Source: Thiomargarita sp. (GTDB lineage Bacteria; Pseudomonadota; Gammaproteobacteria; Beggiatoales; Beggiatoaceae). Taken from it: 32,358 nucleotides of DNA. The notes beneath the pieces are model-generated. The model searched no databases and was not told where the DNA came from. It was given only the letters and a program-made list of their open reading frames with translations. Shown here piece by piece: positions 2,458-32,137 of the stretch (within the stretch, counting starts at the first letter, position 1; each line of letters begins with the position of its first letter). The position numbers were made by a program, and so were the translations under genes. The stretch covers positions 1 through 32,358 of the forward strand of contig DYPD01000038.1 of the NCBI GenBank assembly GCA_020720115.1. The letters are read 5' to 3'.

Positions 2458-3636
2458 ATGGATGAAGTGTTTTATGAACTCGCCACGCACGCAGTCCACA
2501 CCGGACAAGTGCGCACTCAAGAAGGCGAAAACAGCGAAGCCCTGTTTTTGACTTCCAGTTATGTGTTTGCCAATGCAGCGGAAGCGGCGGCGCGCTTTTC
2601 GGGTGCGCAAGCGGGCAACATTTATTCACGTTTTACCAATCCTACCGTGCGCATTTTTGAACAGCGGCTGGCGGCAATGGAAGGCGGCGAGCGTTGCGTT
2701 GCGACGGGTTCTGGCATGGCGGCAATTCTCTGCACTTGCTTAGGCTTGCTGAAAACCGGCGATCATCTGGTGGCTTCGCGTAGCCTGTTTGGCACAACGG
2801 TGGTTTTGCTGGGGCAACTGCTAGGCAAATTCGGCATTAGCACGGATTTTGTGGATTTAACCGATTTAGCGGCTTGGCAGGCGGCGATGCGTCCGAACAC
2901 GCGCTTTTTGTTTCTCGAAACCCCCTCAAATCCTTTAACCCAAATGGCGGATATTCAAGCACTGGCAGATTTAGCACATGCGCACGGTTGTTTGCTGGTA
3001 GTGGACAATTGCTTTTGCACACCCGCATTGCAGCGCCCGTTGCAACTGGGCGCCGACATAGTGATTCATTCCGCCACCAAGTATCTGGATGGACAAGGGC
3101 GTTGCCTGGGCGGTGCGGTCGTTGGCGGGCAAGCGCAACTCAATGACATCTTCGGCATAGTGCGCACCGCCGGTCCCACCATGAGTCCGTTTAATGCCTG
3201 GGTCTTCTTAAAAGGCTTAGAAACCCTAACCATTCGCATGAAAGCACACTGCGAAAGCGCCCTGCGCCTGGCGCAATGGCTAGAAACCCAAGACGCAGTA
3301 GAACAGGTGTATTATCCGGGATTGCCCTCGCATCCGCAGTATGAACTGGCACAACGCCAGCAAACGGCGGCGGGCGGTTTGCTATCGTTTCGCGTCAGCG
3401 GTGGACAAGCAGCCGCTTGGCGGTTGATTGATAACACGCGCTTGTTTTCCATCACCGCCAATCTGGGCGACACCAAAACCACCATCACCCACCCCGCCAC
3501 CACCACGCACGGGCGCTTAACTCCAGAGCAACGCACACAAGCCGACATTAGCGATGGTTTAGTACGCATTTCGGTCGGATTAGAAGATTACCGCGATATT
3601 CAAGCGGATTTACAGCGGGCTTTAGCCACAGTGTAA
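2458..3636 (+). CDS. metZ: O-succinylhomoserine sulfhydrylase MetZ
   Basis: This PLP enzyme of the Cys/Met metabolism family makes homocysteine from O-succinylhomoserine and sulfide. The 392 residues match the family length. Visible features are the YSR phosphate-binding motif (56-58, from the neighbouring subunit), the GSGMAAI cofactor loop (84-90), LETPSNP (153-159), the VVDN aspartate (181-184) and the Schiff-base lysine K208 in SATKYLDG. The pattern SATKYLDGQGRCLGG fits MetZ better than MetB or MetC, though MetY-type sulfhydrylases are related. The start has a purine-rich AAAGAG site about 9 nt upstream. It follows mobA by 36 bp and precedes the Fae homologue by 87 bp. Confidence 0.88.
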   Translation: MDEVFYELATHAVHTGQVRTQEGENSEALFLTSSYVFANAAEAAARFSGAQAGNIYSRFTNPTVRIFEQRLAAMEGGERCVATGSGMAAILCTCLGLLKTGDHLVASRSLFGTTVVLLGQLLGKFGISTDFVDLTDLAAWQAAMRPNTRFLFLETPSNPLTQMADIQALADLAHAHGCLLVVDNCFCTPALQRPLQLGADIVIHSATKYLDGQGRCLGGAVVGGQAQLNDIFGIVRTAGPTMSPFNAWVFLKGLETLTIRMKAHCESALRLAQWLETQDAVEQVYYPGLPSHPQYELAQRQQTAAGGLLSFRVSGGQAAAWRLIDNTRLFSITANLGDTKTTITHPATTTHGRLTPEQRTQADISDGLVRISVGLEDYRDIQADLQRALATV

Positions 3637-3697: not shown

Positions 3698-3723
3698 TTT
3701 CAAAAACACAAGGACACAAAATT

Positions 3724-4284
3724 ATGGCTGTTATGAGTGAAACGATTTCTATCAAGACCGGCGAAACCTCGGCGCGTAGCCAGGAACTGGGACTCAAAAC
3801 CCAAGTGGAAGTGGTAATTGGCGAATTAGCCGGCTCTTTCGGCGCCGCCTTTTCCACCCTATTCGGTCAGGATGTAGACGGTCAAACCTGTTTTGTCGCC
3901 GCCTTAAAAGAAAATGTGCAGGTACGCCCAGCCACATTAATAGTGAATAAATCCGGCAATACCGACGAAACTTACTTGCGTCTGTGGCGCTCCGTAATAC
4001 AACCTGCTGTTGCACACGGCGTCATAGACGCAGTGCGCAATGGCGATATTCCGAAAAAGAAAGCCAATGATCTCGGTGTTATCGTCATGCTGTGGGCGGT
4101 CGCAGAAGTGACTGAAGTGGCTGAATCTGAACATTATTTATTGTTTGACCTACATAGAGACGCAACCTGCCGCGCCATTCACAAAGCAATGGACAACGAA
4201 CCCAGCATTGACTGGCTACTAGAAAAGCAAGACGACCTGGCAAAGCATTTCTACCCCTTAGACAAAGATGCAGATTTTAATTAA
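3724..4284 (+). CDS. Formaldehyde-activating enzyme (Fae) family homologue, catalytic His apparently absent
   Basis: Residues 26-160 follow the Fae family, which in methylotrophs and methanogens condenses formaldehyde with tetrahydromethanopterin. Matching blocks are EVVIG (29-33), RPATLIVNK (68-76), QPAVAHGVIDAVRNG (93-107), IPKKKANDLGVIV (109-121) and the DATCRAI segment (146-152). In classic Fae the motif NEVAHIDLIIG carries the proposed catalytic histidine; the aligned position here is Q27 (TQVEVVIG). The alignment is by eye from memory of the Methylobacterium sequence. The protein has about 25 extra N-terminal residues, and AAGGA lies 9 nt before the start. It sits 26 bp ahead of folK, suggesting a pterin link, but no other methanopterin gene is present. 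Family membership is fairly sure; activity is doubtful. Confidence 0.78.
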   Translation: MAVMSETISIKTGETSARSQELGLKTQVEVVIGELAGSFGAAFSTLFGQDVDGQTCFVAALKENVQVRPATLIVNKSGNTDETYLRLWRSVIQPAVAHGVIDAVRNGDIPKKKANDLGVIVMLWAVAEVTEVAESEHYLLFDLHRDATCRAIHKAMDNEPSIDWLLEKQDDLAKHFYPLDKDADFN

Positions 4285-4310: not shown

Positions 4311-4802
4311 ATGCCGCACATTTACATCAGCATTGGCAGCAACATAGAGCCGCTCAAACACATCCGTGCGGGTGTGCAAAGCCTGCGCACTTGCTACGGC
4401 AATGTGCGGGTTTCGCCCGTGTATGAAAGCGTGGCAGTGGGTTTTACCGGGGATAATTTTTACAACCTAGTGGCAGAATTCGAGACGCAAACCAGTGTAC
4501 GGGCAGTAAGCCAGAACCTAGCGCAAATTGAATTGGATAATCAACGACAACGCGACCAGGAGAAATTTGCCAGCCGTACACTGGATTTAGACTTGTTGCT
4601 GTACGGAGATTTGATTTTGCAAGAAGGCAAACTCAGCCTGCCGCGTGAAGAAATACTAACCTACGCCTTTGTGTTGTGCCCCTTAGCAGACTTGATTCCC
4701 GACGCCAAACATCCGCTTAATGGACAAACCTACGCCGCACTTTGGCAAGCATTTGCAGCCAAAGAGCAAACCCTATGGCAAGTGAATGTATCGCTAGAAT
4801 AG
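4311..4802 (+). CDS. folK: 2-amino-4-hydroxy-6-hydroxymethyldihydropteridine pyrophosphokinase FolK
   Basis: FolK transfers pyrophosphate from ATP to 6-hydroxymethyl-7,8-dihydropterin in folate synthesis. The 163 residues match the usual length. It shows the opening SIGSNIEP (7-14), SPVYES (35-40), FYN (50-52) and the family signature KFASRTLDLDLL (85-96), whose two aspartates bind magnesium. No Shine-Dalgarno sequence is evident before the ATG at 4311 (the upstream bases are C-rich), so translation may depend on the Fae-family gene that stops 26 bp earlier. FolK is often paired with panB or pcnB; here it stands beside a Fae homologue instead. Confidence 0.92.
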   Translation: MPHIYISIGSNIEPLKHIRAGVQSLRTCYGNVRVSPVYESVAVGFTGDNFYNLVAEFETQTSVRAVSQNLAQIELDNQRQRDQEKFASRTLDLDLLLYGDLILQEGKLSLPREEILTYAFVLCPLADLIPDAKHPLNGQTYAALWQAFAAKEQTLWQVNVSLE

Positions 4803-9159: not shown

Positions 9160-9202
9160 TGCTTTAGTTGATGGTTGTGGTTCTTCACTAGGAAATTTAA
9201 CC

Positions 9203-10675
9203 ATGAATCAGTTGCGTGCTCTCTACCTTAACTCCTTGTCTTTACTGACAGATTTATACCAGTTGACAATGGCGTATAGCTATTGGCAGGCGGGTTTGCA
9301 TCAGCAGCAGGCGGTGTTTCATTTGTTTTTTCGTCGTGCGCCCTTTCAGAGCGGTTTTACCCTGGCGGCGGGGTTGGATGCAGTGCAGGATTATTTGCAA
9401 GATTTTCATTTCAGCGAGGCGGATGCGGCTTATCTTGAAACGCTTCAGGGTAATGATGGTAAGCAATTGTTTTCCAGTGCTTTTATTGAGTATTTGCGGA
9501 ATCTGCGCTTAACTTGCGAGGTGGCAGCGGTGCGTGAGGGTTCGGTGGTGTTTGCGCATCAACCGCTGGTGCGTGTGTCGGGGGATTTGTTGCAATGCCA
9601 ATTGCTGGAAACGCCGCTGTTGAATTTGGTTAATTTTCCTACGCTGATTGCCACGAAAGCGGCGCGGGTGTGTTTGGCGGCACAGGGCGATGCGGTGTTG
9701 GAGTTTGGGTTGCGTCGTGCGCAGGGGATTGATGGTGGCGTGACGGCAAGCCGTGCGGCTTATATTGGCGGTTGCGCGGCAACTTCTAATGTGTTGGCGG
9801 GGCAGCTTTATGATATTCCGGTGCGGGGCACGCACGCGCACAGTTGGGTGATGAGTTTTTCTGAGGAACTTGAGGCTTTTCAAACCTATGCGCACGCTAT
9901 GCCGAATAATTGCGTGTTTTTGGTGGATACTTACGACACCTTGGCAGGGGTGAAAAACGCTATTGAAGCCGGACGCTGGTTGCGCGAGCAGGGGCATAAA
10001 ATGGCGGGAATTCGTTTGGATTCCGGCGATTTAGCAAAGCTTAGTCAGGAGGCGCGGCAGCTTTTGGATGCGGCGGGTTTTGCGGATGCCAGCATTGTGG
10101 GCAGTAGCGATTTGGATGAATACCGCATTGCGGAATTGAAGCAGCAGGGCGCACAAATTCGGGTGTGGGGCGTGGGAACTAAATTAGCTACTGCGTACGA
10201 TCAACCGGCGCTTGGCGGTGTGTATAAATTGGGCGCGATTCGTAGCGGCGCGGGGGCGGACTGGCACTATCGCGTCAAGCTGTCGAATGATGCGATTAAG
10301 GTTTCAAACCCAGGTATGTTGCAAACGCGGCGTTATTATCAAGCAGATAAGCCCGTTGGCGATATGCTGTGGAATCAACTGGCTGTTGCGCCTGACGCGC
10401 AGGCGCAACAGGTGCGTTTGCAAGCGGGCGCACAACCTCAAGCTCTGCCGCCGCATACGCATTTTGCTGACTTGTTACAACCACTGATGCAAGAGGGTGC
10501 AATGCTGGGAGAAAAGCCGAATGTGCATGAAATTCGTGCCTATGCCCAAGCGCAATTGGCGTTGTTTGGCGCTTCTCTGGCGGCGATGCCGGATTATCCA
10601 GTGAGCCTAGAAAAGCGTCTGTATGAATTAAAAATGGCGCTTTTGGCGAAAGCGGCGGAAGCCTCTTGTGGATAG
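9203..10675 (+). CDS. pncB: Nicotinate phosphoribosyltransferase
   Basis: The enzyme converts nicotinate and PRPP to nicotinate mononucleotide, the first step of the NAD salvage route. The 490 residues match the longer form of the family. It shows the opening LLTDLYQLTM (14-23), FGLRRAQG (168-175), the conserved GTHAHSW block (209-215) that carries the catalytic-site histidine, and IRLDSGDL in the barrel. The start at 9203 has AGGAA about 9 nt upstream and gives the usual N-terminus; an in-frame ATG at 9149 would overlap the preceding gene and is rejected. It is 43 bp after the exported-protein gene, perhaps in the same transcript. Confidence 0.92.
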   Translation: MNQLRALYLNSLSLLTDLYQLTMAYSYWQAGLHQQQAVFHLFFRRAPFQSGFTLAAGLDAVQDYLQDFHFSEADAAYLETLQGNDGKQLFSSAFIEYLRNLRLTCEVAAVREGSVVFAHQPLVRVSGDLLQCQLLETPLLNLVNFPTLIATKAARVCLAAQGDAVLEFGLRRAQGIDGGVTASRAAYIGGCAATSNVLAGQLYDIPVRGTHAHSWVMSFSEELEAFQTYAHAMPNNCVFLVDTYDTLAGVKNAIEAGRWLREQGHKMAGIRLDSGDLAKLSQEARQLLDAAGFADASIVGSSDLDEYRIAELKQQGAQIRVWGVGTKLATAYDQPALGGVYKLGAIRSGAGADWHYRVKLSNDAIKVSNPGMLQTRRYYQADKPVGDMLWNQLAVAPDAQAQQVRLQAGAQPQALPPHTHFADLLQPLMQEGAMLGEKPNVHEIRAYAQAQLALFGASLAAMPDYPVSLEKRLYELKMALLAKAAEASCG

Positions 10676-10739
10676 ATAACAAGAAAGCAAATGAATAGAA
10701 ATATATTAGAACAAACTAACATTGAAAAAACAAAAATAC

Positions 10740-10769
10740 TTGACACCTGAGTAAAAGAATGGCTACTCT
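10740..10769 (+). promoter_or_regulatory. Possible sigma-70 promoter for the DUF302 gene
   Basis: TTGACA at 10740-10745 is a perfect -35 box, followed after 18 bp by TACTCT at 10764-10769 as a moderate -10 box. The start codon of the DUF302 gene is about 115 bp downstream. The spacer contains CTGAGTAA (10747-10754), repeated inversely as TTACTCAG at 10797-10804, which would suit an operator. Confidence 0.4.
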
Positions 10770-10884
10770 AAAAGCCTGAGATAATTTTTTTTCTGATTAC
10801 TCAGTGAATTGAGAGAGTCTCAGTGTTTTTTGAAATCAATAACCTCTACTAAGAGGAACTTTTACCTACAAAGGAGTGATGAGT

Positions 10885-11370
10885 ATGAAGCGTTTTTTCA
10901 GTCTTGTTGGTGTAATCTGGTTGGCGTGGTCATCTGTGGTATTGGCTGAACAAGCAATGCCTGATCCCAGACAAATGATTGTAGAAAAGGAAAGTCCTTT
11001 TGCTACAGTAGAAGAAACAGTGAGCGCAATTAAGAAAAATATAGAAGCAACTGAAGGCTGGGTGGTGAATGGCATTAAACCCATGAACAAGAAAATTAAA
11101 GAATTAGGCGGACCAGAAATTTTACCCGTGACCTTGATTGATGCTTGTAATCCGCACCACGCTGGCGCTATTTTGAAAAGTGATGCGGATCGTTATGCTT
11201 CTGTGATGATGCCCTGCACCATTTCTGTGTACCAAAAGAGTGATGGCAAGATTTACATCGGCTTTGTCAATGCGCGTATGGTAGGACAAATGTTCGGCGG
11301 CGCTGTGGCGGAAATTATGGGCGGTGCGGTTGCAGACGATCAGGATAAATTCTTGTCTTTCGACAAATAA
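10885..11370 (+). CDS. Exported DUF302 domain protein
   Basis: This 161-residue protein has a signal peptide (cleavage near VLAEQ, residue 21) and a DUF302 domain over about 35-135. The domain's conserved core is visible as LIDACNPHHAGAIL (84-97) and the following SVMMPCTISVYQ (107-118), with two cysteines (88, 111) and a His pair (91-92). DUF302 proteins are small and often periplasmic; their function is not established, although some occur beside sulfur- and oxygen-related genes. The start at 10885 is chosen because AAGGAG ends 8 nt before it, whereas the ATG at 10879 is too close. A strong terminator lies 20 bp after the stop, so it is a single-gene unit. Confidence 0.85.
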   Translation: MKRFFSLVGVIWLAWSSVVLAEQAMPDPRQMIVEKESPFATVEETVSAIKKNIEATEGWVVNGIKPMNKKIKELGGPEILPVTLIDACNPHHAGAILKSDADRYASVMMPCTISVYQKSDGKIYIGFVNARMVGQMFGGAVAEIMGGAVADDQDKFLSFDK

Positions 11371-11390
11371 TACGGGTTTGTTTTCACACC

Positions 11391-11424
11391 ACAAAAAAAC
11401 CGAGCTATGTCTCGGTTTTTTTGT
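11391..11424 (+). terminator. Intrinsic terminator after the DUF302 gene
   Basis: A 14-bp perfect stem (11391-11404 with 11411-11424, core ACCGAG/CTCGGT) with a 6-nt loop is flanked by A-runs and T-runs, giving a classic terminator that works in both directions. Confidence 0.93.
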
Positions 11425-11660
11425 GTCTATGCTGATGACCTTAAGGGGGATTAAGTGAATGGCAGCGGGACTGAGCCAGATAGCGGTAAAACCTAGAATT
11501 AGGTGAAATTTTCAATAAAAACAAATGCTTGATTTAATTAACCGAATCGAACCAGGGTTAAATATTCTCTGCGTCATTGTGACATTTTTGTTAAAATGCC
11601 TCGTTTTTCAGCAAAAAAACAATTAAAAAATGGATTTTCTTGTCTTGCGAGGACAGTAAC
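11425..11660. other. Upstream region of the ODP-like gene
   Basis: These 236 bp hold no open frame with support. An AT-rich segment around 11570-11600 (containing TTGTGACA and TTAAAAT) may hold a promoter, but no pair of boxes with correct spacing stands out. GAGG at 11648-11651 is the ribosome site of the next gene. Confidence 0.4.
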
Positions 11661-12449
11661 ATGGCGCTGGAACTTTATAACGACGGTCAACACAAATGTA
11701 TCGGCTTTTACGATTTGGTTTCCGGGCAGGGTATTCAGTCTAATCAGTTTTTGGTGGTCAATGGTAAGCATTCTGCCATCATTGATCCGGGCGGCGATCT
11801 GGTTTACCGCGATCTCTTTATGCAAGCCTATCGTTATTTGTTTAGTAATAGCCTGGAATATGTGATTGGTTCGCATCAGGACCCAGACATTATTTCTTCA
11901 TTAAATCAATGGATTTTAGGCTCTAATTGTAAAATCATTGTGCCCAAAATTTGGGAACGCTTTATTCCGCATTTTGCGCCTAAGGCGGATTTATCGGGGC
12001 GTTTAATCGGCATTCCTGATGAGGGGATGAATATTCATCTGGGTAATGCGGTGTTGCAAGCATTGCCTGCGCATTTTCTGCATTCTGAGGGGAATTTTCA
12101 GTTTTATGATCCAGTCGCCAAAATTCTCTTTTCCGGCGATTTGGGCGCTTCAATGATACAGAGTAACCATGCTGCTCCGGTGGATAATTTTGCTGCCCAT
12201 GTGAAAACGATGGAGGCTTTTCATCAGCGTTACATGAGCAGTAACAAGGTCTGCCGTTTTTGGGTGAACATGGTGCGTCCGCTTGATTTAGAGTGGATTG
12301 TGCCGCAACATGGGCGTCCTTTTAAGGGCAAGGCGGTTATCACTGAGTTTTTGAATTGGATAGAAAAGCTGCAATGCGGCGTGGATTTGGCAACGCAAGC
12401 AATGTATCAGCGCCCCGCAGCGGATGCTTTGCAGCGCATTAGACATTAA
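11661..12449 (+). CDS. ODP-like di-iron metallo-beta-lactamase-fold protein (possible oxygen sensor)
   Basis: This 262-residue protein resembles the lactamase half of flavodiiron proteins without the flavodoxin part, like the oxygen-binding di-iron protein (ODP) described from Treponema. Probable metal ligands are H72, D74 and D76 in SHQDPD, H141 in FLHSEGNF, D160 in FSGDLGAS and H217 in PQHGRP. The HxDxD form replaces the HxExD of flavodiiron reductases, as in ODPs. The start at 11661 has GAGG 9 nt upstream; the ATG at 11640 is less well placed. No chemotaxis or methyl-accepting partner is fused, although two chemoreceptors occur 5-8 kb away. It ends 4 bp from the convergent transporter gene. 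The family is fairly sure; the sensory role is inferred from the family. Confidence 0.82.
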   Translation: MALELYNDGQHKCIGFYDLVSGQGIQSNQFLVVNGKHSAIIDPGGDLVYRDLFMQAYRYLFSNSLEYVIGSHQDPDIISSLNQWILGSNCKIIVPKIWERFIPHFAPKADLSGRLIGIPDEGMNIHLGNAVLQALPAHFLHSEGNFQFYDPVAKILFSGDLGASMIQSNHAAPVDNFAAHVKTMEAFHQRYMSSNKVCRFWVNMVRPLDLEWIVPQHGRPFKGKAVITEFLNWIEKLQCGVDLATQAMYQRPAADALQRIRH

Positions 12450-12453
12450 CCTC

Positions 12454-13686
12454 TTAGTAGAAAATTCCCACCAGTGCGCCAGTCATACAGGTAGCCAGCG
12501 TACCTGCTAAAATGGATTTCATACCGAGCGCCGCGACCTCGCTGCGGCGTTCAGGCGCTAGGGCGCTAAGTCCGCCGATGAGTATCCCCAAGCTGCCAAA
12601 ATTAGCAAAACCGCACAGCGCATAAATCATGATCAGGCGCGAACGTTCACTTAAGTCTTGCGCCTGCGCTAGTTGCAAATAGGCAAGAAATTCGTTGAGG
12701 ATGGTTTTTATCCCCATCAAACTGCCCGCTGTGCCGGTTTCTGCCCAAGGAATGCCCATTAACCACACGACTGGCGCCATAATCCAACCCAAAATAAGCT
12801 GTAAACTCAATGGCTTGTCACTATAGCTTGGCAGCCAGCCAAGTAGTTGATTGGCAAGCTGCACCAGTGTAACGAACACCAAAAGCAGCGCCACTATGTT
12901 GAGCAGCAGCTTTAACCCCTCTAAAGTGCCCTGGGTCACTGCCTCCATACTGCTGGTAACGCTTTGCTGCGGCAATAAATGCCCGTCGGTGGGCGTTGCG
13001 GTTTCAGGAATCATCAAGCGAGCAACCGTAATGGCAGCGGGCGCACTGAGCACAGAGGCAATGAGCAAATGCGCTAAGGCGTCGGGAAAAGTGGTGCTGA
13101 GAAGGGTGGCATAGAGCACCAGCACCGTGCCGGCAATGGTTGCCATGCCCGTTGTCATGAGCGCAAAGAGTTCGCTGCGCGTGAGTTGTTGCAGATAGGG
13201 GCGAATCAGCAAGGGCGCTTCGGTCATGCCGACAAAAATATTTGCCGCCGCGCCTAGACCCAGCGCCCCGCCGATGTTCAGGCTTTTTTGTAGCAACCAA
13301 GAAAAACCGCGCACAATCCAAGGCAAAATACGCCAATAAAACAGCAACGAAGACAGGGCGCTGATCACTATAACCAAGGGTAAGGCTTTGAAAGCCAAGA
13401 TAAAGCTGTTGTTGGGCTGAGTTACGGTAAAAGGCGCATCGCCACCGCCTAAATAGCCAAACACAAAGCTAGTGCCGGCATTTGTGGCGGTATTGAGCGC
13501 CAGCACCAGTTGGTTTAAGCCGAGGAAAATCTGCTGTAAAAATGCCAACTTAAACAACAGCGCCGCCAGCAAAAGTTGCACGCCCAAGCCTAAAGCCACA
13601 TCGCGCCAAGCAATGCGCTGCCGCTGTTCGCTAAAGAGCCAAGCAAATGCCGCAAAACAGAAAAATCCGAACAAACTCTGCATCAT
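12454..13686 (-). CDS. Concentrative nucleoside transporter (NupC/CNT family)
   Basis: This 410-residue inner-membrane protein couples nucleoside uptake to a proton or sodium gradient. It has many hydrophobic helices and the family motifs: GMTEAP (153-158), the pore-region FALMTTGMATIAG block that follows, GIKTILNEFLAY (matching the family pattern G-x-K-x3-N-E-F) and ALCGFANFGS near the end. AAGGA lies about 8 nt before the first ATG at 13686; a second ATG follows at once. It stands alone, convergent with the ODP-like gene. The substrate range (pyrimidine or broad) cannot be judged by eye. Confidence 0.88.
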   Translation of the reverse strand: MMQSLFGFFCFAAFAWLFSEQRQRIAWRDVALGLGVQLLLAALLFKLAFLQQIFLGLNQLVLALNTATNAGTSFVFGYLGGGDAPFTVTQPNNSFILAFKALPLVIVISALSSLLFYWRILPWIVRGFSWLLQKSLNIGGALGLGAAANIFVGMTEAPLLIRPYLQQLTRSELFALMTTGMATIAGTVLVLYATLLSTTFPDALAHLLIASVLSAPAAITVARLMIPETATPTDGHLLPQQSVTSSMEAVTQGTLEGLKLLLNIVALLLVFVTLVQLANQLLGWLPSYSDKPLSLQLILGWIMAPVVWLMGIPWAETGTAGSLMGIKTILNEFLAYLQLAQAQDLSERSRLIMIYALCGFANFGSLGILIGGLSALAPERRSEVAALGMKSILAGTLATCMTGALVGIFY

Positions 13687-13881
13687 TGAAGCGTCCTTCC
13701 TATTGTGATGGTTTTAGAGAAAAGTGCTGGCTGTCTGATTGCCACTGATGAATCCTCACTGTCATTCCGGTCAGCTTGTGGCACAATAATCTCTCGTTAG
13801 GTTGTGGCGCTATTCACCTTACGCCCAGCGCACCGCATTAAGCTATCATCTCTTTGGACTGAATTTTTTACAACCGCCTTT

Positions 13882-14943
13882 ATGTTTACGCCAAGCTCAA
13901 AACAGATCGCTGAGGTGTTTCAAGACTTGCAGGAAAAATTACAGCAAGGCTTTGAAACCTTTAGTAAAATCCAGAACACAGCGATAGGGCAGACGCCGAA
14001 AAACCTGGTTTATCAGGAAGATCGCATTAAGCTCTATCGCTATACGCCGATGATCGCGCAGCCTAATCAGGTACCAACGCTGATTGTATACGCGCTGGTC
14101 AATCGTCCGCAGATGGTAGATTTGCAGCCGGATCGTTCGCTGGTGCGCGGTTTGCTGGAAGGTGGACAGGATGTTTATCTGATGGATTGGGGCTATCCGC
14201 AGAGTGAAGATGCCAGTTTGACTTTGAATGATCACATCAATGGTTATCTGCACAACTGCATCGAATATCTGTGTCAGCAGCACAAAATCCTTGCGCTTAA
14301 CCTGTTAGGCGTGTGTCAGGGCGGCACTTTTAGCCTCTGTTACAGCGCCCAACATCCCAGCAAGGTGCGTAATCTGGTGCTGATGGTGACGCCGGTGGAT
14401 TTCCATACGACGGAAAATACCTTACGCCATATGTGCCAGCACGTTGATGTGGATTTGCTGGTGAATACTTGCGCTAACGGCAATGTGCCTGGTGGCTGGT
14501 TAAATAACCTGTTTATTTCGCTGAAGCCCTTTCGTTTGGGTAGCCAAAAATATGTGCATCTTTTGGATAAACTGGCGGATCAAGCCGCAGTAGAGCATTT
14601 TTTGCGCATGGAACAATGGATTTTTGACAGCCCAGACCAACCCGGTGAAACCTTCCGAGAATTTGTCACCTGGTTTTTCAAAGAAAATCGCTTGGTCAAG
14701 GGTACGCTCATGCTGGGCGGCAAAGCGGTTCATTTACGCCGCCTCAAAATGCCTATACTCAACCTGTATGCGCTTGCCGATCATATAGTGCCACCCGGTG
14801 CATCCACTGCCTTGGCAGATCATGTCAGTAGCCAAGATTACCAAGAACAGGCTTTTGCTGGCGGACACATCGGCATCTATGTCAGCCGCCAAGCACAACA
14901 GCAAATACCCACAACGATAAGCAATTGGCTCAATCAGCGTTAG
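13882..14943 (+). CDS. phaC: Class III poly(3-hydroxyalkanoate) synthase subunit PhaC
   Basis: PhaC polymerises 3-hydroxyacyl-CoA into polyhydroxyalkanoate at granule surfaces. At 353 residues this is the short class III form (about 355 in Allochromatium), which normally works with PhaE. The lipase-like box GVCQGG (143-148) gives the nucleophile C145; D300 in LADHIVPP and H329 in GGHIG complete the triad. The start at 13882 is chosen because the protein then matches the family N-terminus; a GTG at 13804 would add 26 residues. No clear ribosome site precedes either. No phaE, phaA, phaB or phasin gene adjoins it; glmM follows after 51 bp. Confidence 0.9.
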   Translation: MFTPSSKQIAEVFQDLQEKLQQGFETFSKIQNTAIGQTPKNLVYQEDRIKLYRYTPMIAQPNQVPTLIVYALVNRPQMVDLQPDRSLVRGLLEGGQDVYLMDWGYPQSEDASLTLNDHINGYLHNCIEYLCQQHKILALNLLGVCQGGTFSLCYSAQHPSKVRNLVLMVTPVDFHTTENTLRHMCQHVDVDLLVNTCANGNVPGGWLNNLFISLKPFRLGSQKYVHLLDKLADQAAVEHFLRMEQWIFDSPDQPGETFREFVTWFFKENRLVKGTLMLGGKAVHLRRLKMPILNLYALADHIVPPGASTALADHVSSQDYQEQAFAGGHIGIYVSRQAQQQIPTTISNWLNQR

Positions 14944-14994
14944 TTGTTAAAGACATTGGATTGATTTCTTAATCAAGAGGAGAACAAAAAACTC

Positions 14995-16347
14995 ATGGAG
15001 CACAGCAGAACATATTTTGGCACTGATGGCATTCGCGGCGAAGTAGGCAAACACCCTATCACGCCAGCGTTTGTTTTAAAGCTGGGCTGGGCGGCGGGGC
15101 AAGTGCTCAATCAAGGCGGGCGCAATCGCATCCTGATTGGTAAAGACACGCGCATTTCCGGTTATATGTTTGAATCCGCGCTAGAAGCCGGGCTATCCGC
15201 TGCCGGAATGCACATTCGCCTGCTGGGACCTATGCCAACACCCGGGATTGCCTATCTGACGCGCACTTTTCATGCAAATGCTGGCATTGTGGTCAGCGCC
15301 TCGCACAATCCTTTTTATGACAATGGCATCAAGTTTTTTTCCAATAGCGGCGAGAAATTGCCCGATGAGATCGAATTAGCCATAGAAGCCGCCTTGGATC
15401 GCCCCATGACCACCGTCAGTTCCGGCAAATTGGGCAAAGCCAAGCGCGTAGACGACGCCGCTGGGCGCTATATCGAGTTTTGCAAAAGCTCGATCCCGCC
15501 CTATTTATCGCTAGACGGCATGAAATTAGTGGTAGATTGCGCGCACGGTGCGACCTACCACATAGCCCCCAATGTGTTACAAGAACTAGGCGCCCAAGTA
15601 CACAGCATCGGCGTCGCGCCAGATGGTTTAAATATCAACCAAGACTGCGGCGCAACTCAACCACAAACCTTACGCCAAACCGTGTTAGCACAGCAGGCGG
15701 ATTTAGGCATCGCCTTAGACGGCGACGGAGATCGCCTCATCATGGTCGATCACAAAGGCGAAATCGTAGACGGCGACGAAATTCTGTTTTTAATCGCCCG
15801 CGCCAGACACCAGGCAGGTTTGTTACGCGGTCCAGTGGTCGGCACACTCATGAGCAACTTAGGGCTAGAACAAGCCCTCGTTTGCCAAGGGATAGATTTT
15901 CTACGCGCCAAGGTCGGCGACCGCTATGTACTGGAATTATTAAAACAAAACAATGGCTTAATCGGTGGAGAAGGGTCTGGGCATGTGATCTGCCTGGATC
16001 GCACCACCACCGGCGACGGCATTGTCAGCGCCTTACAAGTGCTGGCAATTTGCCAACAAGAAGGTAAAAGCCTGCATGAACTCAAGCAAGGCATGACTAA
16101 ATACCCGCAAATATTGCGCAACATTCGCTTGCCAGAAAAACAAGAGGTGCTGGCAGTACCCGCCGTGCAGCACGCCATCGCCGCAGCCGAAAGCGCCTTA
16201 GCAGACAAAGGGCGCGTGCTGTTGCGCCTATCGGGCACTGAACCGCTAGTGCGCGTGATGGTGGAAGGACAAGATGCTGCCTTAGTCGAGCGCCTGATAA
16301 CCGAGCTAGTCGAGCAGGTTAAAGCAGCGGTTATTCATCCTGAATAA
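14995..16347 (+). CDS. glmM: Phosphoglucosamine mutase GlmM
   Basis: GlmM interconverts glucosamine-6-phosphate and glucosamine-1-phosphate on the way to UDP-GlcNAc for peptidoglycan and lipopolysaccharide. The 450 residues match the family. It shows the N-terminal YFGTDGIRG (7-15), the phosphoserine loop with S103 in SASHNP (101-106), the metal-binding DGDGDR near 240-245, the sugar-binding GEGSGH, and the phosphate-binding [12 protein letters not shown] near the C-terminus. AGGAG lies upstream but with a long spacing of about 13 nt. It follows the class III phaC by 51 bp. In many gammaproteobacteria glmM follows folP; here it does not. GlmS of the same pathway lies about 14 kb away in this window. 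Confidence 0.96.
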
Positions 16348-16389
16348 ACAGTCAAATCAACTCACTCGCATTAACATGAAGGTCTCACC

Positions 16390-17091
16390 ATGAATCAACC
16401 GCTACCATTCTATGCCGCCTTACTCGCGTGCCTTTGTGTCGCCAACAACGGCTGGGCAGAAGAAGATTTCAAATGCTGGAAAAACGAATCTGGCGTGCTG
16501 GAATGCGGTAACACCATACCGCCACAATTTGTTAGCCAAGGCTACGAAGTGCGCAATGAAAATGCCGATGTAGTGCAAGTCGAAAAGCGCGAAATGAGTC
16601 CAGAAGAACGTAACCGCCTGCTAGAAATAGAACGGCAAAAAATCGAAGCCGAAAAGCAAGCTAAAGTGCAAGCGGAAGAAGACAAACGTCTGCTCGATTT
16701 ATACCCCAACGAGCGTGACATCATCAATGCACGAGATTTGAAAATCCTGCGCATCAACAAAAGTGTAGAAATCACCCAAAAAGACTTAAATGCGCGTAAA
16801 GCGCGTCTGGAAAAGCTTAAAGTTCAAGCAGAGCGTGCTGCCAAACGCGCAGACAAAGTCTCTTTGGAAAACCTAGCAACCTTGCAAACGCATATCGCCA
16901 GCCTAGAAAATCAAATTAAAACCATCCAGTCATCCGTTGACGGCAAAGAGCAAGAAAAACAGGAGATCATGAGCGAATATAGCAAAACACTGGATAAATA
17001 CCGAGAAATTCAAGCACGCACACGTTTAATTGAAGAAGCAGAAAAAAATGAAGAACGCATAAAAGCCCAAGCCCAGCCACAGCAGAGATAA
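16390..17091 (+). CDS. Exported coiled-coil protein with DUF4124-like N-terminus
   Basis: This 233-residue protein has a signal peptide (cleavage near GWAEE, residue 24) and a short segment resembling DUF4124 (KCWKNESGVLECGNTIPP, about 28-45) with two cysteines. From residue 65 on it is almost entirely charged heptad-type sequence rich in Glu, Lys, Gln and Ala, predicting long coiled coils, broken near 100-115 (LYPNERDIINARD). AAGG stands 8 nt before the ATG. It follows glmM by 42 bp and probably shares its transcript. Such proteins are common in gammaproteobacteria and are thought to act in the periplasm; function is unknown. Confidence 0.8.
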   Translation: MNQPLPFYAALLACLCVANNGWAEEDFKCWKNESGVLECGNTIPPQFVSQGYEVRNENADVVQVEKREMSPEERNRLLEIERQKIEAEKQAKVQAEEDKRLLDLYPNERDIINARDLKILRINKSVEITQKDLNARKARLEKLKVQAERAAKRADKVSLENLATLQTHIASLENQIKTIQSSVDGKEQEKQEIMSEYSKTLDKYREIQARTRLIEEAEKNEERIKAQAQPQQR

Positions 17092-17102
17092 ACACCTCAC
17101 TC

Positions 17103-17130
17103 AAGTTAGGCGACACACTCCGCCTAACTT
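17103..17130. terminator. Hairpin between convergent genes
   Basis: The perfect 10-bp inverted repeat AAGTTAGGCG (17103-17112) and CGCCTAACTT (17121-17130), with an 8-nt loop, lies between the stops of the coiled-coil gene and the minus-strand chemoreceptor. There is no real T-run, so it may be a weak or factor-assisted terminator for both. Confidence 0.55.
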
Positions 17131-17134
17131 AGTA

Positions 17135-19213
17135 TTACAGAGGCTGCCCACGATACAGTATTTTCTTTTCGCCTAAGTCTTGCTGGGCAGGTTGACGGAA
17201 ACGCTCTACTTCAGTTTGTAATCCGCGCGCCGCATCATTGAGTTGTTCAATGGCAAAGAAAGACTCTTGTAATGAATCTGAAGTTTGTTGCATTCCTTCA
17301 CCTAATTCAGCCATTTCCATATTGATTTCTTTAGATTTCTCCGATTGCTCAATCATCGCTTGCTTAACATTGTAAAAATTGGGCGATAGCAAACGCACCT
17401 GTTCAATAATACGATTCAGTTGCAGGCTGATTTTACCTACATCTTCAGCACTGTGGCGCACACCTTCGATAAACTTATCCATTTCCATCACACCTGCTGA
17501 GACCGCGCTCTGCATTTCTTTCATCATGCGTTCAATGTCTAAGGTAGCAACCGCAGTTTGATCTGCTAAACGCCGTATTTCTCTGGCTACTACATTGAAA
17601 CCGTGTCCATACTCGCCGGCTTTCTCAGCTTCTATGGCGGCATTCAGTGAGAGCAAGTTGGTTTGCTCGGCAACTTTAGTAATGGTGGTCACCACGCTAC
17701 TGATGTTTTCAGTTTTTTCGTTAATAGCTTCTAGGCGACTGGAAATTGCGGTAGACGCTTCTTCCATATGGTGCGTGACAATTTGCATCCGCGATAAATC
17801 CGATTGTCCATGCGAAGCAAATTCGGCAGTTTCTTCCGACATAGTCGCCACTGCTTCCATTGTTTGCACCAATTCATCTGATAAGGAAGTGATGGATTCT
17901 ACAGCACGAATGACTTTATTGGTTGAGTCCAATTGTGCCAACATAGTGGCTTTCTGCTGTTTGGCAGTGGCAGCTAATTCTGTAGCAGAGGAAGTAACCT
18001 GTACGCCAGCTCGGTGAATCTGATGAAGCACTTGGCGTTGTACTTCTACCATATGATTAATCGCATCACCCATTTGACCTATTTCATCATGAGAATTCAG
18101 ATGTAACTTAATTTTATTGTCACCTTCGCGCACTTTATTAGAGAACTCTACAATGCGTGCCATCGGTGCAAGAATGAATTTTGCGGTAATGAAAAACCCC
18201 AATAATGCCAATGCCAGAAGAATTGCCAGTAACACGCCCAGTAAGGTCATAGAAACCTTTTGCAAGCGGGATTCTTCTTGTTGTACCTCAAAAGTGTAAG
18301 CTAATATACCAATTTGACGCTGGCTAAAATCTTGCAAAGGTAGTATGCCCAGAACAAACTGATTTTTTTGTATCACACTAAGTTGTTGCCGTCCCTGTTC
18401 TAATATCTCAGCGGTCAACAAGGCTTCACCCAATTTATTGCCCGTTCCATACACATAAACATATTTATTTTCCAATACCGGATAGCGTTCTGGATCATTG
18501 AGCAAGGTGGTGATTTTCAAATATTCGGCATTCATGAATAAAAACAAATTTTGTTTCACCGCGGAATGCTGCACAGCACTGTCTAAAATGGGCGCTAGAT
18601 CAAGCAAGGCTTCCACCGAACCCAGCGCCTTACCCGCCTCGCTACGCACTGGCGCAAGACCGCGCAGAACAAAACCACCGCGTCCTAGTTCAATACCCTG
18701 CACTGGTTTGCCAGTGCGGTTTACTTCCAGCACGGTTTGGCGAAAATTGGATATATCATCCGATTTATCCTGCCCAACGCCATCTAGGCTGACCTGCTTG
18801 TCGCGCCATAGGCGCAACAGGCTACGTCCGTTGGGTAAATGAAAATGCAGCTTGAGCAAATCGCCCCCAAGCTGTTGACTGTAGCCTTCCACAATCGGAT
18901 GCAAAGCCTCGCGCAATTCTTCTCGTGCGGCTTGTGCTTGCGCGTCGTCTGCATCCTCAATGCTGCCTTGATGTGCCTTAGTAAAGGCTTGAATCACTAC
19001 GGGCAAGCGGGTAAACATAGCCGCTTTTTCCAACGCCTGACGTCCAGCAAATTCAATCGCCGCTTGCAACTCGTCGTTTTTTTGTTGCACTGTCTTGCGG
19101 TAGACCTCGGCTTTCAGGGTATCTAGCTCAGTGTTGATCATCATATAACCGAGCCAAGCCAGCACCAGCAAAGCACCGAACATAGGCAAAAAGATTTTCT
19201 GTTTTAAGGTCAT
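17135..19213 (-). CDS. Methyl-accepting chemotaxis protein with dCache-type sensor
   Basis: This 692-residue transmembrane chemoreceptor has TM1 at about 8-26, a large periplasmic domain (27-317), TM2 at about 320-345, a HAMP domain (346-400) and the cytoplasmic signalling rod. The rod's hairpin tip is EQTNLLSLNAAIEAEKAG (516-533), contacting CheA and CheW. The periplasmic part has FHLPNGRSLLRLWR (124-137), FRQTVLEVNRTGKPVQGIE (157-175) and GFVLRGLAPV (180-189), which match the dCache_3 pattern as I recall it. No C-terminal CheR-binding pentapeptide is seen. The ribosome site is weak. It is divergent from the second chemoreceptor. No che genes are in the window. The ligand is unknown. Confidence 0.9.
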   Translation of the reverse strand: MTLKQKIFLPMFGALLVLAWLGYMMINTELDTLKAEVYRKTVQQKNDELQAAIEFAGRQALEKAAMFTRLPVVIQAFTKAHQGSIEDADDAQAQAAREELREALHPIVEGYSQQLGGDLLKLHFHLPNGRSLLRLWRDKQVSLDGVGQDKSDDISNFRQTVLEVNRTGKPVQGIELGRGGFVLRGLAPVRSEAGKALGSVEALLDLAPILDSAVQHSAVKQNLFLFMNAEYLKITTLLNDPERYPVLENKYVYVYGTGNKLGEALLTAEILEQGRQQLSVIQKNQFVLGILPLQDFSQRQIGILAYTFEVQQEESRLQKVSMTLLGVLLAILLALALLGFFITAKFILAPMARIVEFSNKVREGDNKIKLHLNSHDEIGQMGDAINHMVEVQRQVLHQIHRAGVQVTSSATELAATAKQQKATMLAQLDSTNKVIRAVESITSLSDELVQTMEAVATMSEETAEFASHGQSDLSRMQIVTHHMEEASTAISSRLEAINEKTENISSVVTTITKVAEQTNLLSLNAAIEAEKAGEYGHGFNVVAREIRRLADQTAVATLDIERMMKEMQSAVSAGVMEMDKFIEGVRHSAEDVGKISLQLNRIIEQVRLLSPNFYNVKQAMIEQSEKSKEINMEMAELGEGMQQTSDSLQESFFAIEQLNDAARGLQTEVERFRQPAQQDLGEKKILYRGQPL

Positions 19214-23661: not shown

Positions 23662-25416
23662 ATGAGCGATTCGCAGACCGAATTTAAAAACCCACAAGAG
23701 ATTTTTGCCGCCTTTGCCAAACAAGCTGAAGGCTTTATGCACGGCTTTGCCGCTGAACAAAACCAAGAAATGCTTAAGCATTTCACCCAGGCTTGGAGCA
23801 GCATTGCGCAGGATTCTGCGCAGCAGCCGCAAAAATGGATGGCGTTGATGCAAGAATTTCAGCAGCAACAAATGAATCTGTGGATAAGTTTTTGGGAAAA
23901 ACCCAATGGCGAGCGTCAGCCAGTGATTACGCCGCCCAAAGGGGACCGGCGTTTTGCCAGCGAAGCTTGGAATGAAAATCCGGTGTTTGATTACCTTAAA
24001 CAATCCTATTTGTTGACTTCTGACTTGCTACTGAAAAGTGCGCAAGCGGCGAATTTGGATGAAGATAATCAAAAACGTCTGAATTTTTACACGCGCTATT
24101 TTATTGATGCCATTGCGCCTAGCAACTTTGCGGCGACCAATCCTGAAGTCATGCAGCAAGCCATTGAAACTAAAGGGCAAAGCCTAATTAATGGATTAAA
24201 AAATCTGCTCGGCGACATGGAAAAAGGGCGCATCAGCATGACCGATGAGTCAGCCTTCAAGCTGGGCGAAAATCTCGCCATTACGCCAGGGGCAGTAGTT
24301 TACGAAAACGATTTAATGCAGTTAATTCAATACAAGCCCAGCACCGAAACCGTTGCAGAAAATCCAGTGGTGATTGTGCCGCCGTGCATAAACAAGTATT
24401 ACATCATGGATTTACAGCCCGGTAATTCGCTAGTTAAATACATGGTAGATCAAGGGCATACGGTGTTTTTGATTTCCTGGGTTAATCCTGATGTGGAACT
24501 AGCGGACACCAGTTGGGATGATTATATCGAGCGCGGACCACTGCAAGCCTTTGAAATTGTTAAAACAATCAGCGGTGCGAAAAAACTCAACGCAGTCGCC
24601 TGGTGCGTTGGCGGCACTATTCTCGGCATGGCGTTGTCTGTGTTACATGCGCGACGTAAACAAGCGATGATCGCTTCTGCGACCTATCTCACTACCCTGC
24701 TAGATTTCTCCGAACCTGGCAACATAGGCGTGTTCTTAAACGAAGCCCAATTGGCACAACGCGAAGCCCAATTAAAATATACCAAAGTCCTGTCCGGTAA
24801 GGATTTAGCTTTGGCTTTCAATATGTTACGCGCTAATGATTTGATTTGGTCGTATGTAGTCAACAACTATTTGAAAGGACAAGCGCCGACGCCCTTTGAC
24901 ATCCTCTACTGGAACAGCGATTCCACCAACCTACCCGCCGCCATGTACAGCTACTATTTGCGCACTATGTACTTGGATAACAAGGTGATAGAAGCAGATG
25001 CCCTGGAAGTCTGCGGAACTAAAAACAATCTGTCAAAAATCAAAACGCCCAGCTATTTCCTCTCCACCATTGAAGACCACATTGCGCCTTGGAAAACCAC
25101 GTTCAAGGGCACAGAAGTCATGGGCGGCTCAGTGGAATTTGTGCTCGGCGGTAGCGGACACATTGCGGGCGTCATCAACCCGCCGTACAAAGAAAAACGC
25201 AATCATTGGGTCGGTGGCGAACTGGGGCAGGGCGCAGAAAAATGGTTAGAAAGCGCCACTTCCAAGCCCGGAAGCTGGTGGCCGCACTGGGCAGAATGGG
25301 TTAAGCAATACAGTGGTGAGCGGGTCGCAGCGCGTACAGAGCTTGGTAACCAGACTTATCAAGTCATTGAAGCCGCGCCCGGTCGCTATGTTAAACGTCG
25401 CATTGATCAAAAATAA
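23662..25416 (+). CDS. phaC: Class I poly(3-hydroxyalkanoate) synthase PhaC
   Basis: This 584-residue synthase is the long single-subunit type (589 in Cupriavidus), acting on short-chain 3-hydroxyacyl-CoA at granule surfaces. It has the variable N-terminal helical domain (1-100) and an alpha/beta hydrolase core with C315, D472 (EDHIAPW) and H500 (GSGHIAG) as the triad. The box around the nucleophile reads A-W-C-V-G-G (313-318), with Ala where the family consensus G-x-C-x-G-G has Gly. Downstream landmarks FDILYWN and the PGSWWPHWAEW tail are typical. TAGGAG lies 11 nt before the ATG. It stops 18 bp before tmk and has no phaA, phaB or phaR beside it. Confidence 0.95.
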   Translation: MSDSQTEFKNPQEIFAAFAKQAEGFMHGFAAEQNQEMLKHFTQAWSSIAQDSAQQPQKWMALMQEFQQQQMNLWISFWEKPNGERQPVITPPKGDRRFASEAWNENPVFDYLKQSYLLTSDLLLKSAQAANLDEDNQKRLNFYTRYFIDAIAPSNFAATNPEVMQQAIETKGQSLINGLKNLLGDMEKGRISMTDESAFKLGENLAITPGAVVYENDLMQLIQYKPSTETVAENPVVIVPPCINKYYIMDLQPGNSLVKYMVDQGHTVFLISWVNPDVELADTSWDDYIERGPLQAFEIVKTISGAKKLNAVAWCVGGTILGMALSVLHARRKQAMIASATYLTTLLDFSEPGNIGVFLNEAQLAQREAQLKYTKVLSGKDLALAFNMLRANDLIWSYVVNNYLKGQAPTPFDILYWNSDSTNLPAAMYSYYLRTMYLDNKVIEADALEVCGTKNNLSKIKTPSYFLSTIEDHIAPWKTTFKGTEVMGGSVEFVLGGSGHIAGVINPPYKEKRNHWVGGELGQGAEKWLESATSKPGSWWPHWAEWVKQYSGERVAARTELGNQTYQVIEAAPGRYVKRRIDQK

Positions 25417-31774: not shown

Positions 31775-32137
31775 ATGGAAATCTTTAAGGAATTTAGCTT
31801 TGATGCGGCACACCGCTTGCCAAATGTGCCGACTGGGCATAAATGCGCACGCTTACATGGACATACCTATCGCGTGACCCTGTATGTGGCAGGTGCAATA
31901 GGCGCAGAAAGCGGTTGGGTCATGGATTTTGGTGAGATTAAAACTGCCTTTAAGCCGCTTTACGAACAACTGGATCACTATTATCTAAACGAGATTGAAG
32001 GCTTAGAAAATCCAACAGCAGAAAACATCGCACGTTGGATTTGGCAGCGCCTTAAGCCAGTTTTGCCACAATTAAGTAAAATCCGTATTCACGAAACCTG
32101 TACTGCGGGTTGCGCTTATCGCGGAGAAGATGATTAG
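31775..32137 (+). CDS. queD: 6-carboxytetrahydropterin synthase QueD
   Basis: QueD converts dihydroneopterin triphosphate to 6-carboxytetrahydropterin in queuosine synthesis. The 120 residues match the bacterial enzyme. Zinc ligands are H13 (DAAHRL), H28 and H30 (LHGH); C24 in KCARLHGH is the catalytic cysteine that marks QueD. D67-H68 (QLDHYYLN), PTAEN (80-84) and E107 (HETCT) complete the site. GGGG stands just before the ATG. It begins 14 bp after glmS and stops 10 bp before the next start, so the three genes look cotranscribed. A eukaryote-type pyruvoyl-tetrahydropterin synthase is the alternative but is less likely. Confidence 0.93.

Follow-up and report, generated by a model that had tools for sequence, protein, structure and literature searches.

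What does a member of the formaldehyde-activating enzyme (Fae) family do when its catalytic histidine is missing? The presence of Fae commonly counts as a sign that formaldehyde is oxidized via methanopterin, and PMC4109929 calls it a methylotrophy signature. The question is raised by a gene of Thiomargarita sp. (Beggiatoaceae), which lies within the window—the whole stretch of 32,358 nucleotides that was analyzed. The open reading frame opens with ATG, nine bases past the motif AAGGA, and is flanked by metZ upstream and folK downstream; a sigma-70 promoter scan gave no signal beyond chance.

2458 to 3636, forward strand: metZ (O-succinylhomoserine sulfhydrylase), the upstream neighbor (NF006003, 682 bits)
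3710 to 3714, forward strand: AAGGA, likely ribosome-binding site (from the sequence)
3724 to 4284, forward strand: gene of a Fae3-like protein of 186 amino acids, a His-less member of the Fae family (PF08714, TIGR03126 score, and tree)
4311 to 4802, forward strand: folK, the second HPPK copy of the genome (TIGR01498, 96.8 bits versus a cut-off of 54.1)

The product is a full-length Fae-fold protein. It matches PF08714 at 127.2 bits (E 7.6e-37, residues 24–176, curated cut-off 27), and Fae is the sole domain detected in it by Pfam. Against TIGR03126, the equivalog model of canonical Fae, it scores 78 bits, below the cut-off of 118.05. The AlphaFold model is poor, being a monomer built on four sequences with a mean pLDDT of 44; structure comparison with this poor model gave Fae (1Y5Y) as the best match, with a Z-score of 12.7 and an rmsd of 4.3 over 149 aligned residues, versus a Z-score of 8.0 for the next unrelated entry. 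The Fae-like body described in the first-pass annotation is, hence, recovered by the profile and by the structure match. The N-terminal extension described there shrinks to just three extra residues, as M4 aligns with Met1 of alphaproteobacterial relatives. As a side observation, a segment of chain B in PDB entry 8ub7 (Avd) aligns in the manner of Methylobacterium extorquens Fae; the entry is perhaps a fusion scaffold.

In a phmmer comparison, Gln27 pairs with residue 21, a histidine, in the 1Y5Y chain of M. extorquens Fae; the catalytic histidine is numbered His17 in the literature. In the multiple alignment, the window protein and 1Y5Y run without gaps over window residues 27 to 129, and Gln27 is therefore not an alignment slip. 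Across 69 rows, the column holds His in 41, Met in 14, Glu in 12, Gln in one, and Thr in one, which are counts of an assembled set and not population frequencies: the rows are 68 distinct Fae sequences from fetched loci plus a PDB fragment, and one source search contributed 30 best matches given as loci. A second alignment of 89 rows adds 20 Fae3 rows from 24 genomes, several of which are near-identical. Three proteins are termed Beggiatoaceae-type in the following, and they read Gln (window), Thr (L002, from a same-genus relative), and Glu (G406) at this column; Glu also occupies it in all 31 other Fae3-type rows of the larger alignment. The claimed loss of the catalytic histidine thus holds in the phmmer pairing, in the gap-free comparison with 1Y5Y, and in the 69-row alignment of Fae with its paralogs, and no other histidine of the protein aligns at the catalytic position. 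As read from the alignments, this loss is common to whole paralog groups, which carry Met or Glu, and is not peculiar to the window gene. No statement that Fae2 or Fae3 lacks the catalytic histidine was found in the literature searched, the papers on the Fae structure and on the naming of fae2 and fae3 lying outside that search; the term "fae" was not found in PMC5020050.

The residues that bear on a possible active site are encoded as follows:

3802 to 3804, forward strand: codon of Gln27 (CAA), at the catalytic-His position of canonical Fae (alignments)
3808 to 3810, forward strand: codon of Glu29, an acidic residue at the position of the canonical Asp (89-row alignment)
3949 to 3951, forward strand: codon of Lys76, a polar residue invariant in all Fae classes examined (89-row alignment)
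4000 to 4002, forward strand: codon of Gln93, the second such invariant polar residue (89-row alignment)
4015 to 4017, forward strand: codon of His98, a residue shared by all three Beggiatoaceae-type proteins (89-row alignment)

Lys76 and Gln93 are the sole polar residues invariant across the Fae classes examined, next to several likewise invariant Gly, Pro, and Ala residues, and both are kept in all three Beggiatoaceae-type proteins. The same three proteins keep Glu29, and Glu stands at this canonical Asp position in 14 of 14 Fae2-type and 31 of 31 Fae3-type rows. In the 37 canonical rows, the Thr two residues past the Lys and a second His (FIHW motif) never vary; both are replaced in the window protein. 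Position 98 is Asn in 30 of the 31 Fae3-type rows and Met in 30 of the 37 canonical ones. Located five residues past Gln93, His98 is predicted to be the likeliest stand-in for the lost acid/base, as a candidate in spatial terms only. The active site of Fae lies between subunits, and the model with its pLDDT of 44 is a monomer. Compared with canonical Fae (EC 4.2.1.147; M. extorquens, PDB 1Y5Y/1Y60), the window protein hence shares the fold (Z-score 12.7) and the invariant Lys and Gln but is only 23% identical in the structural alignment, with the His, the Asp (Glu in the window), the Thr, and the second His all replaced.

For the phylogeny, Fae proteins were gathered at three taxonomic levels around the window genome (class, family, and phylum), from a plasmid (the best one of 13 records), and from Alphaproteobacteria. 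In the tree of the 69-row alignment, all His-less rows lie on one side of a branch with 100/98 support. The Met rows form a clade of their own (98/95), separate from the Glu group, and the window protein groups with the Glu-type rows with 99/96 support in the first tree and 98/95 in a second tree, which was built from 45 of the 89 rows (10 of the 41 His-type, 14 Fae2-type, 18 of the 31 Fae3-type, and 3 Beggiatoaceae-type). The window protein, its same-genus relative (L002/L039/L082, 77% identical), and the G406 protein are united with 100/100 support, and their branch is long (0.9 to 1.1 changes per site); Fae3-type proteins outside the genus are 40 to 46% identical to the window protein. A placement of the Beggiatoaceae-type rows outside Fae3 is not rejected (p-AU 0.135), and joining them with Fae2 is disfavored (p-AU 0.038). 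The window protein is, judged from these trees, either a long-branch Fae3 member or its immediate sister.

A profile of the subgroup (A2) gives matches in 398 genomes of the phylum that fall into three tiers of 250–326, 119–140, and less than 76 bits. The uppermost tier, with the Fae3 range taken as at least 250 bits, comprises eight genomes including the window's own, the protein of which scores 325.6 bits against a profile that it is itself part of. In the 3.0-Mb genome G747, each tier is represented by one match, and fae, fae2, and fae3 are tabulated for Methylophilaceae in the part of PMC4109929 available. Because of these two observations, the Met clade and the Glu group are equated with Fae2 and Fae3 of the methylotrophy literature, an assignment that we infer from copy number and distribution. 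The window protein shares with Fae2 the lack of the His (Met in all 14 rows of the putative Fae2 clade), but Fae2 forms its own clade (98/95), the window reads Gln instead of Met, and the grouping of the two is the disfavored one. It resembles Fae3, as named for Methylophilaceae and Methyloversatilis in the accessible text of PMC4109929 and PMC5023235, in its tree branch, its C-terminal signature, the missing catalytic His, and the Glu at the Asp position; it differs in carrying Gln (Thr in its sister) instead of the Glu of 31 of 31 Fae3-type rows, in 37 of 79 changed Fae3-conserved columns, and in a host without Mch, FTR, and canonical Fae.

Two side observations concern the annotation of the family. 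The His-less proteins at L044 (1495–2049, Fae3-type) and L067 (1474–2088, Fae2-type) score 127.8 and 120.2 bits against the TIGR03126 cut-off of 118.05, and such paralogs can therefore be annotated as formaldehyde-activating enzyme. Moreover, a separate Fae group that keeps the histidine (L061–L064, starting with GEGFEG and reading HIN at the His column) occurs in the genomes G711, G709, G555, and G536 without Mch and, thus, is another Fae type without a methanopterin marker.

The loss of the Fae3 pattern is uneven along the chain. Of 79 columns conserved among the 31 Fae3-type rows, the window protein keeps 42 and changes 37: the kept ones are 19 of the 45 located up to residue 98, 23 of the 30 in residues 99–170, and none of the four beyond. 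The contrast between the two halves has a Fisher p of 0.004 (0.016 and 0.015 with two alternative cuts); the place of the cut was chosen after the alignment was seen. In all three Beggiatoaceae-type proteins, 25 of the 79 columns are lost (two of them as a gap in G406), and W124, F141, R145, D163-W164-L165-L166, and Q169 of the C-terminal signature are kept; in the window protein, most of this signature is retained:

KAMDNEPSIDWLLEKQD

The ligand contacts of canonical Fae fall in the first half of the protein, and the column counts thus indicate a stronger divergence of this pocket half than of the C-terminal one. For fae of the window compared with that of L002, pN/pS is 0.16 with synonymous sites saturated, similar to the 0.155 of metZ, which reads as purifying selection on the Beggiatoaceae-type gene.

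The family sample comprised 42 genomes from 25 genera (the available text of PMC11172852 gives Beggiatoaceae as 25 GTDB genera), and five of the 42 contain any Fae. In the window genome (G000), G371 (the same-genus relative), and G406, rated 98–99% complete (99.5% for the window genome), the His-less protein is the sole Fae; the confamilial genomes G372 and G373 have a canonical Fae plus a Met-type Fae. The H4MPT pathway was tested by two markers, Mch and FTR, neither of which was found in the former three and both of which are present in the latter two. PQQ alcohol dehydrogenase over the cut-off was found in none of the three versus both of the two. These hosts are probably nonmethylotrophic sulfur bacteria, and in them a relative of Fae3, the Beggiatoaceae-type protein, persists without the tested methanopterin markers. 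As no second Fae, no Mch, and no FTR was found in the window genome, the known H4MPT reaction is unlikely for the window protein. The absence of other methanopterin or formaldehyde-oxidation genes nearby, as stated in the first-pass annotation, was confirmed within the window for 10 proteins tested by HMM and by eye for the other open reading frames; two pterin-related genes of the window, QueD at 31775 and MobA at 1840, belong to housekeeping. The window also contains, as an observation apart, two polyhydroxyalkanoate synthases less than 10 kb from each other, a class III PhaC (13804–14943) and a class I PhaC (23662–25416).

Elsewhere, Fae3 mostly co-occurs with Mch, which is present in eight of ten other Fae3 carriers and absent from G785 and G787, an absence that means little with the completeness not given; the Fae3 group may therefore be linked to methanopterin. 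The order of G786 (small-genome Alphaproteobacteria, probably marine, completeness not given) has matches in the Fae3 range in 24 of 32 genomes, in the canonical range in 21, and in both in 16. On contig C10 of G786, a 1.2-Mb alphaproteobacterial bin, FTR, Mch, and a canonical-range Fae lie together (9182–17323), forming a methanopterin cluster in a small-genome lineage.

Two neighboring genes were considered as partners. The folK gene does start 26 bp downstream of fae on the same strand, as had been pointed out, and a functional link between the two is not borne out: the genes are adjacent in one of the three subgroup genomes, and folK lies in the flanks of none of the 34 fetched Fae3 loci besides the window, including the other two Beggiatoaceae-type loci (flanks of 0.2–12 kb per side, a few below 1 kb). 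At L002 in G371, a convergent exonuclease gene comes after fae and folK lies on another contig; in G406, folK and fae likewise lie on different contigs. Two FolK genes are present in each of the five family genomes tested (in the window genome, 4311–4802 of the window and G000:C96:24483–24878). FolK of the window is of the second kind, being 56 to 62% identical to its counterparts and 31 to 37% to the first kind, and the second-kind folK stands beside folB in three of four other genomes (G372, G373, and G406); next to that of G371, no folB was found in the 3.4 kb examined. For the folK–fae adjacency of the window, an incidental origin is the best reading. The metZ product is 82.5% identical in the same-genus relative (L002/L082), and metZ lies upstream of fae in both species of the genus. 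This shared order of metZ and fae in L002 makes an assembly contamination unlikely; a viral or phage origin was rejected as well, with no relatives found in viral_contigs (query alphaproteobacterial L003) or in phages (query window protein). MetZ-like genes also lie within 8 kb of Fae3 in L076, L077, and L080 of one genus, which count as about one event because they share neighbors, and no match was found near Fae3 in the remaining fetched loci. MetZ is a weak candidate for a functional partner.

Fae3 loci of other hosts point to C1 metabolism more directly. On plasmid pLVM1 of Methylobacterium sp. DM1 (L042, 4508–12549), fae3 stands beside gmaS in a dimethylamine/N-methylglutamate island, in which it is preceded by dmmA, a ferredoxin-type reductase, the haem N-demethylase alpha subunit, mgsABC-like genes, and the type III glutamine synthetase gene (gmaS). 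A similar island in G533, probably a Methylobacterium (L078, 1–12500), continues after fae3 with genes of a GcvT folate-binding protein and a TMAO permease. The two islands are closely similar copies and account for 2 of the 34 Fae3 loci. According to PMC5023235, fae3 of Methyloversatilis is upregulated 11.7-fold on methylamine, and fae3 deletion mutants show no growth difference from the wild type on either methanol or methylamine. For the GcvT-domain protein DmmD, PMC5520151 proposes that it joins formaldehyde from methylated-amine demethylation to H4F. Together, the island, the GcvT protein of L078, the methylamine induction, and the DmmD proposal favor H4F-linked C1 handling for Fae3 in general. 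The likeness to such DmmD/GcvT-type H4F-binding proteins consists in the GcvT-domain gene beside Fae3 in L078; they differ in family (PF01571 versus PF08714) and do not adjoin the window gene. For the Beggiatoaceae-type copies, no link to H4F enzymes was found, and the other Fae3 neighborhoods examined are unrelated: a lipid-transport cluster (L073), a muropeptide-type transporter and sulfonate uptake (L074), and a DsbD-like protein (L075). As a general Fae3 partner, the N-methylglutamate pathway lacks support from co-occurrence despite the two loci: among Mch-positive genomes, the N-methylglutamate synthase gene occurs in five of eight with Fae3 and, no less often, in five of eight with Fae2 without Fae3. 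It also occurs in two of four genomes with canonical Fae alone, and it was not found in the window genome.

The reading preferred here, with an even chance of being right, is that the window protein is a Fae3-derived, nonmethanopterin binder of formaldehyde or of a C1-pterin without canonical catalysis. The Beggiatoaceae-type protein keeps the Fae fold together with Lys76 and Gln93. Its acid/base histidine is gone, as is much of what is Fae3-specific in the pocket half, but the C-terminal signature is mostly kept. The protein would have formaldehyde or a C1-carrying pterin of the folate type as its ligand, without performing the known Fae catalysis, and it may serve H4F-linked C1 handling via a conserved protein–protein face, be it as carrier, buffer, or sensor; the ligand class, the oligomer, the noncatalytic role, and the partner are herein putative. 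Sensing or carrying formaldehyde on a folate-type cofactor, as suggested in the first-pass annotation, is plausible, and the dmm/mgs/gmaS islands with fae3 hint in this direction for Fae3 in general. A broader version, in which Fae2 and Fae3 as a whole are His-less noncatalytic binders of C1-pterins or formaldehyde and the Beggiatoaceae branch left methanopterin to become a carrier or sensor using folate or free formaldehyde, is advanced tentatively and may well prove too wide.

A sensor or regulator proper, which would bind formaldehyde or a C1-pterin and signal to a partner, seems unlikely. In G406, fae lies 136 bp downstream of the gene of a sigma-54 response regulator, both being on one strand, and the C-terminal half is more conserved than the pocket half; however, neither the window nor L002 has a response-regulator neighbor, a single locus is weak evidence, and Pfam shows no domain beyond Fae. 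The formaldehyde sensor EfgA, presumably of family DUF336, is unrelated to Fae. It does illustrate that a formaldehyde-binding sensor role exists in methylotrophs (PMC8153426, in the text available), and sensing or signaling roles were proposed for Fae homologs, for example, of Methylotenera, in the accessible part of PMC3728764. A catalyst acting on H4F, i.e., a folate-dependent Fae that would form methylene-H4F from formaldehyde with another acid/base such as His98 or Glu29, is rather improbable. Lys76 and Gln93 are retained, His98 is found in all three proteins five residues past Gln93, and glutathione formaldehyde dehydrogenase over the cut-off is missing from G000 and G406. On the other hand, the His column reads Gln, Thr, or Glu with no conserved residue capable of acid/base chemistry, the canonical Thr and second His are replaced as well, and the dehydrogenase is present in G371 and missing from the controls G372 and G373, too. 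Moreover, the condensation of formaldehyde with H4F is already fast without an enzyme.

A relic of past methylotrophy that was reused for an unrelated purpose without a C1 ligand has a slim prospect: the long branch, the 25 Fae3-conserved columns lost in all three proteins, and the sporadic occurrence in 3 of 42 family genomes would suit it, but Lys76, Gln93, and Glu29 are kept in all three, and pN/pS is as low as for metZ. By far the poorest fit is a folate-pathway partner working with FolK, which draws on the short same-strand distance of 26 bp in the window and conflicts with the separate contigs of fae and folK in G371 and G406, with the 34 other Fae3 loci devoid of folK, and with FolK being a second copy in five of five family genomes and encoded beside folB in three.

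The window protein is, thus, a variant within the already named Fae3 paralog group, and what sets it apart is that it is kept with no methanopterin marker found. Two paralog groups without the catalytic histidine can exceed the public equivalog cut-off, as seen for one representative each, and one lineage keeps a His-less Fae with neither of the tested methanopterin markers. In the Beggiatoaceae-type protein, a possible non-H4MPT role is set apart from the canonical pathway, and the protein offers a test case for Fae3 function. If the broader version is true, the Beggiatoaceae branch would represent a Fae pseudoenzyme outside methylotrophy.
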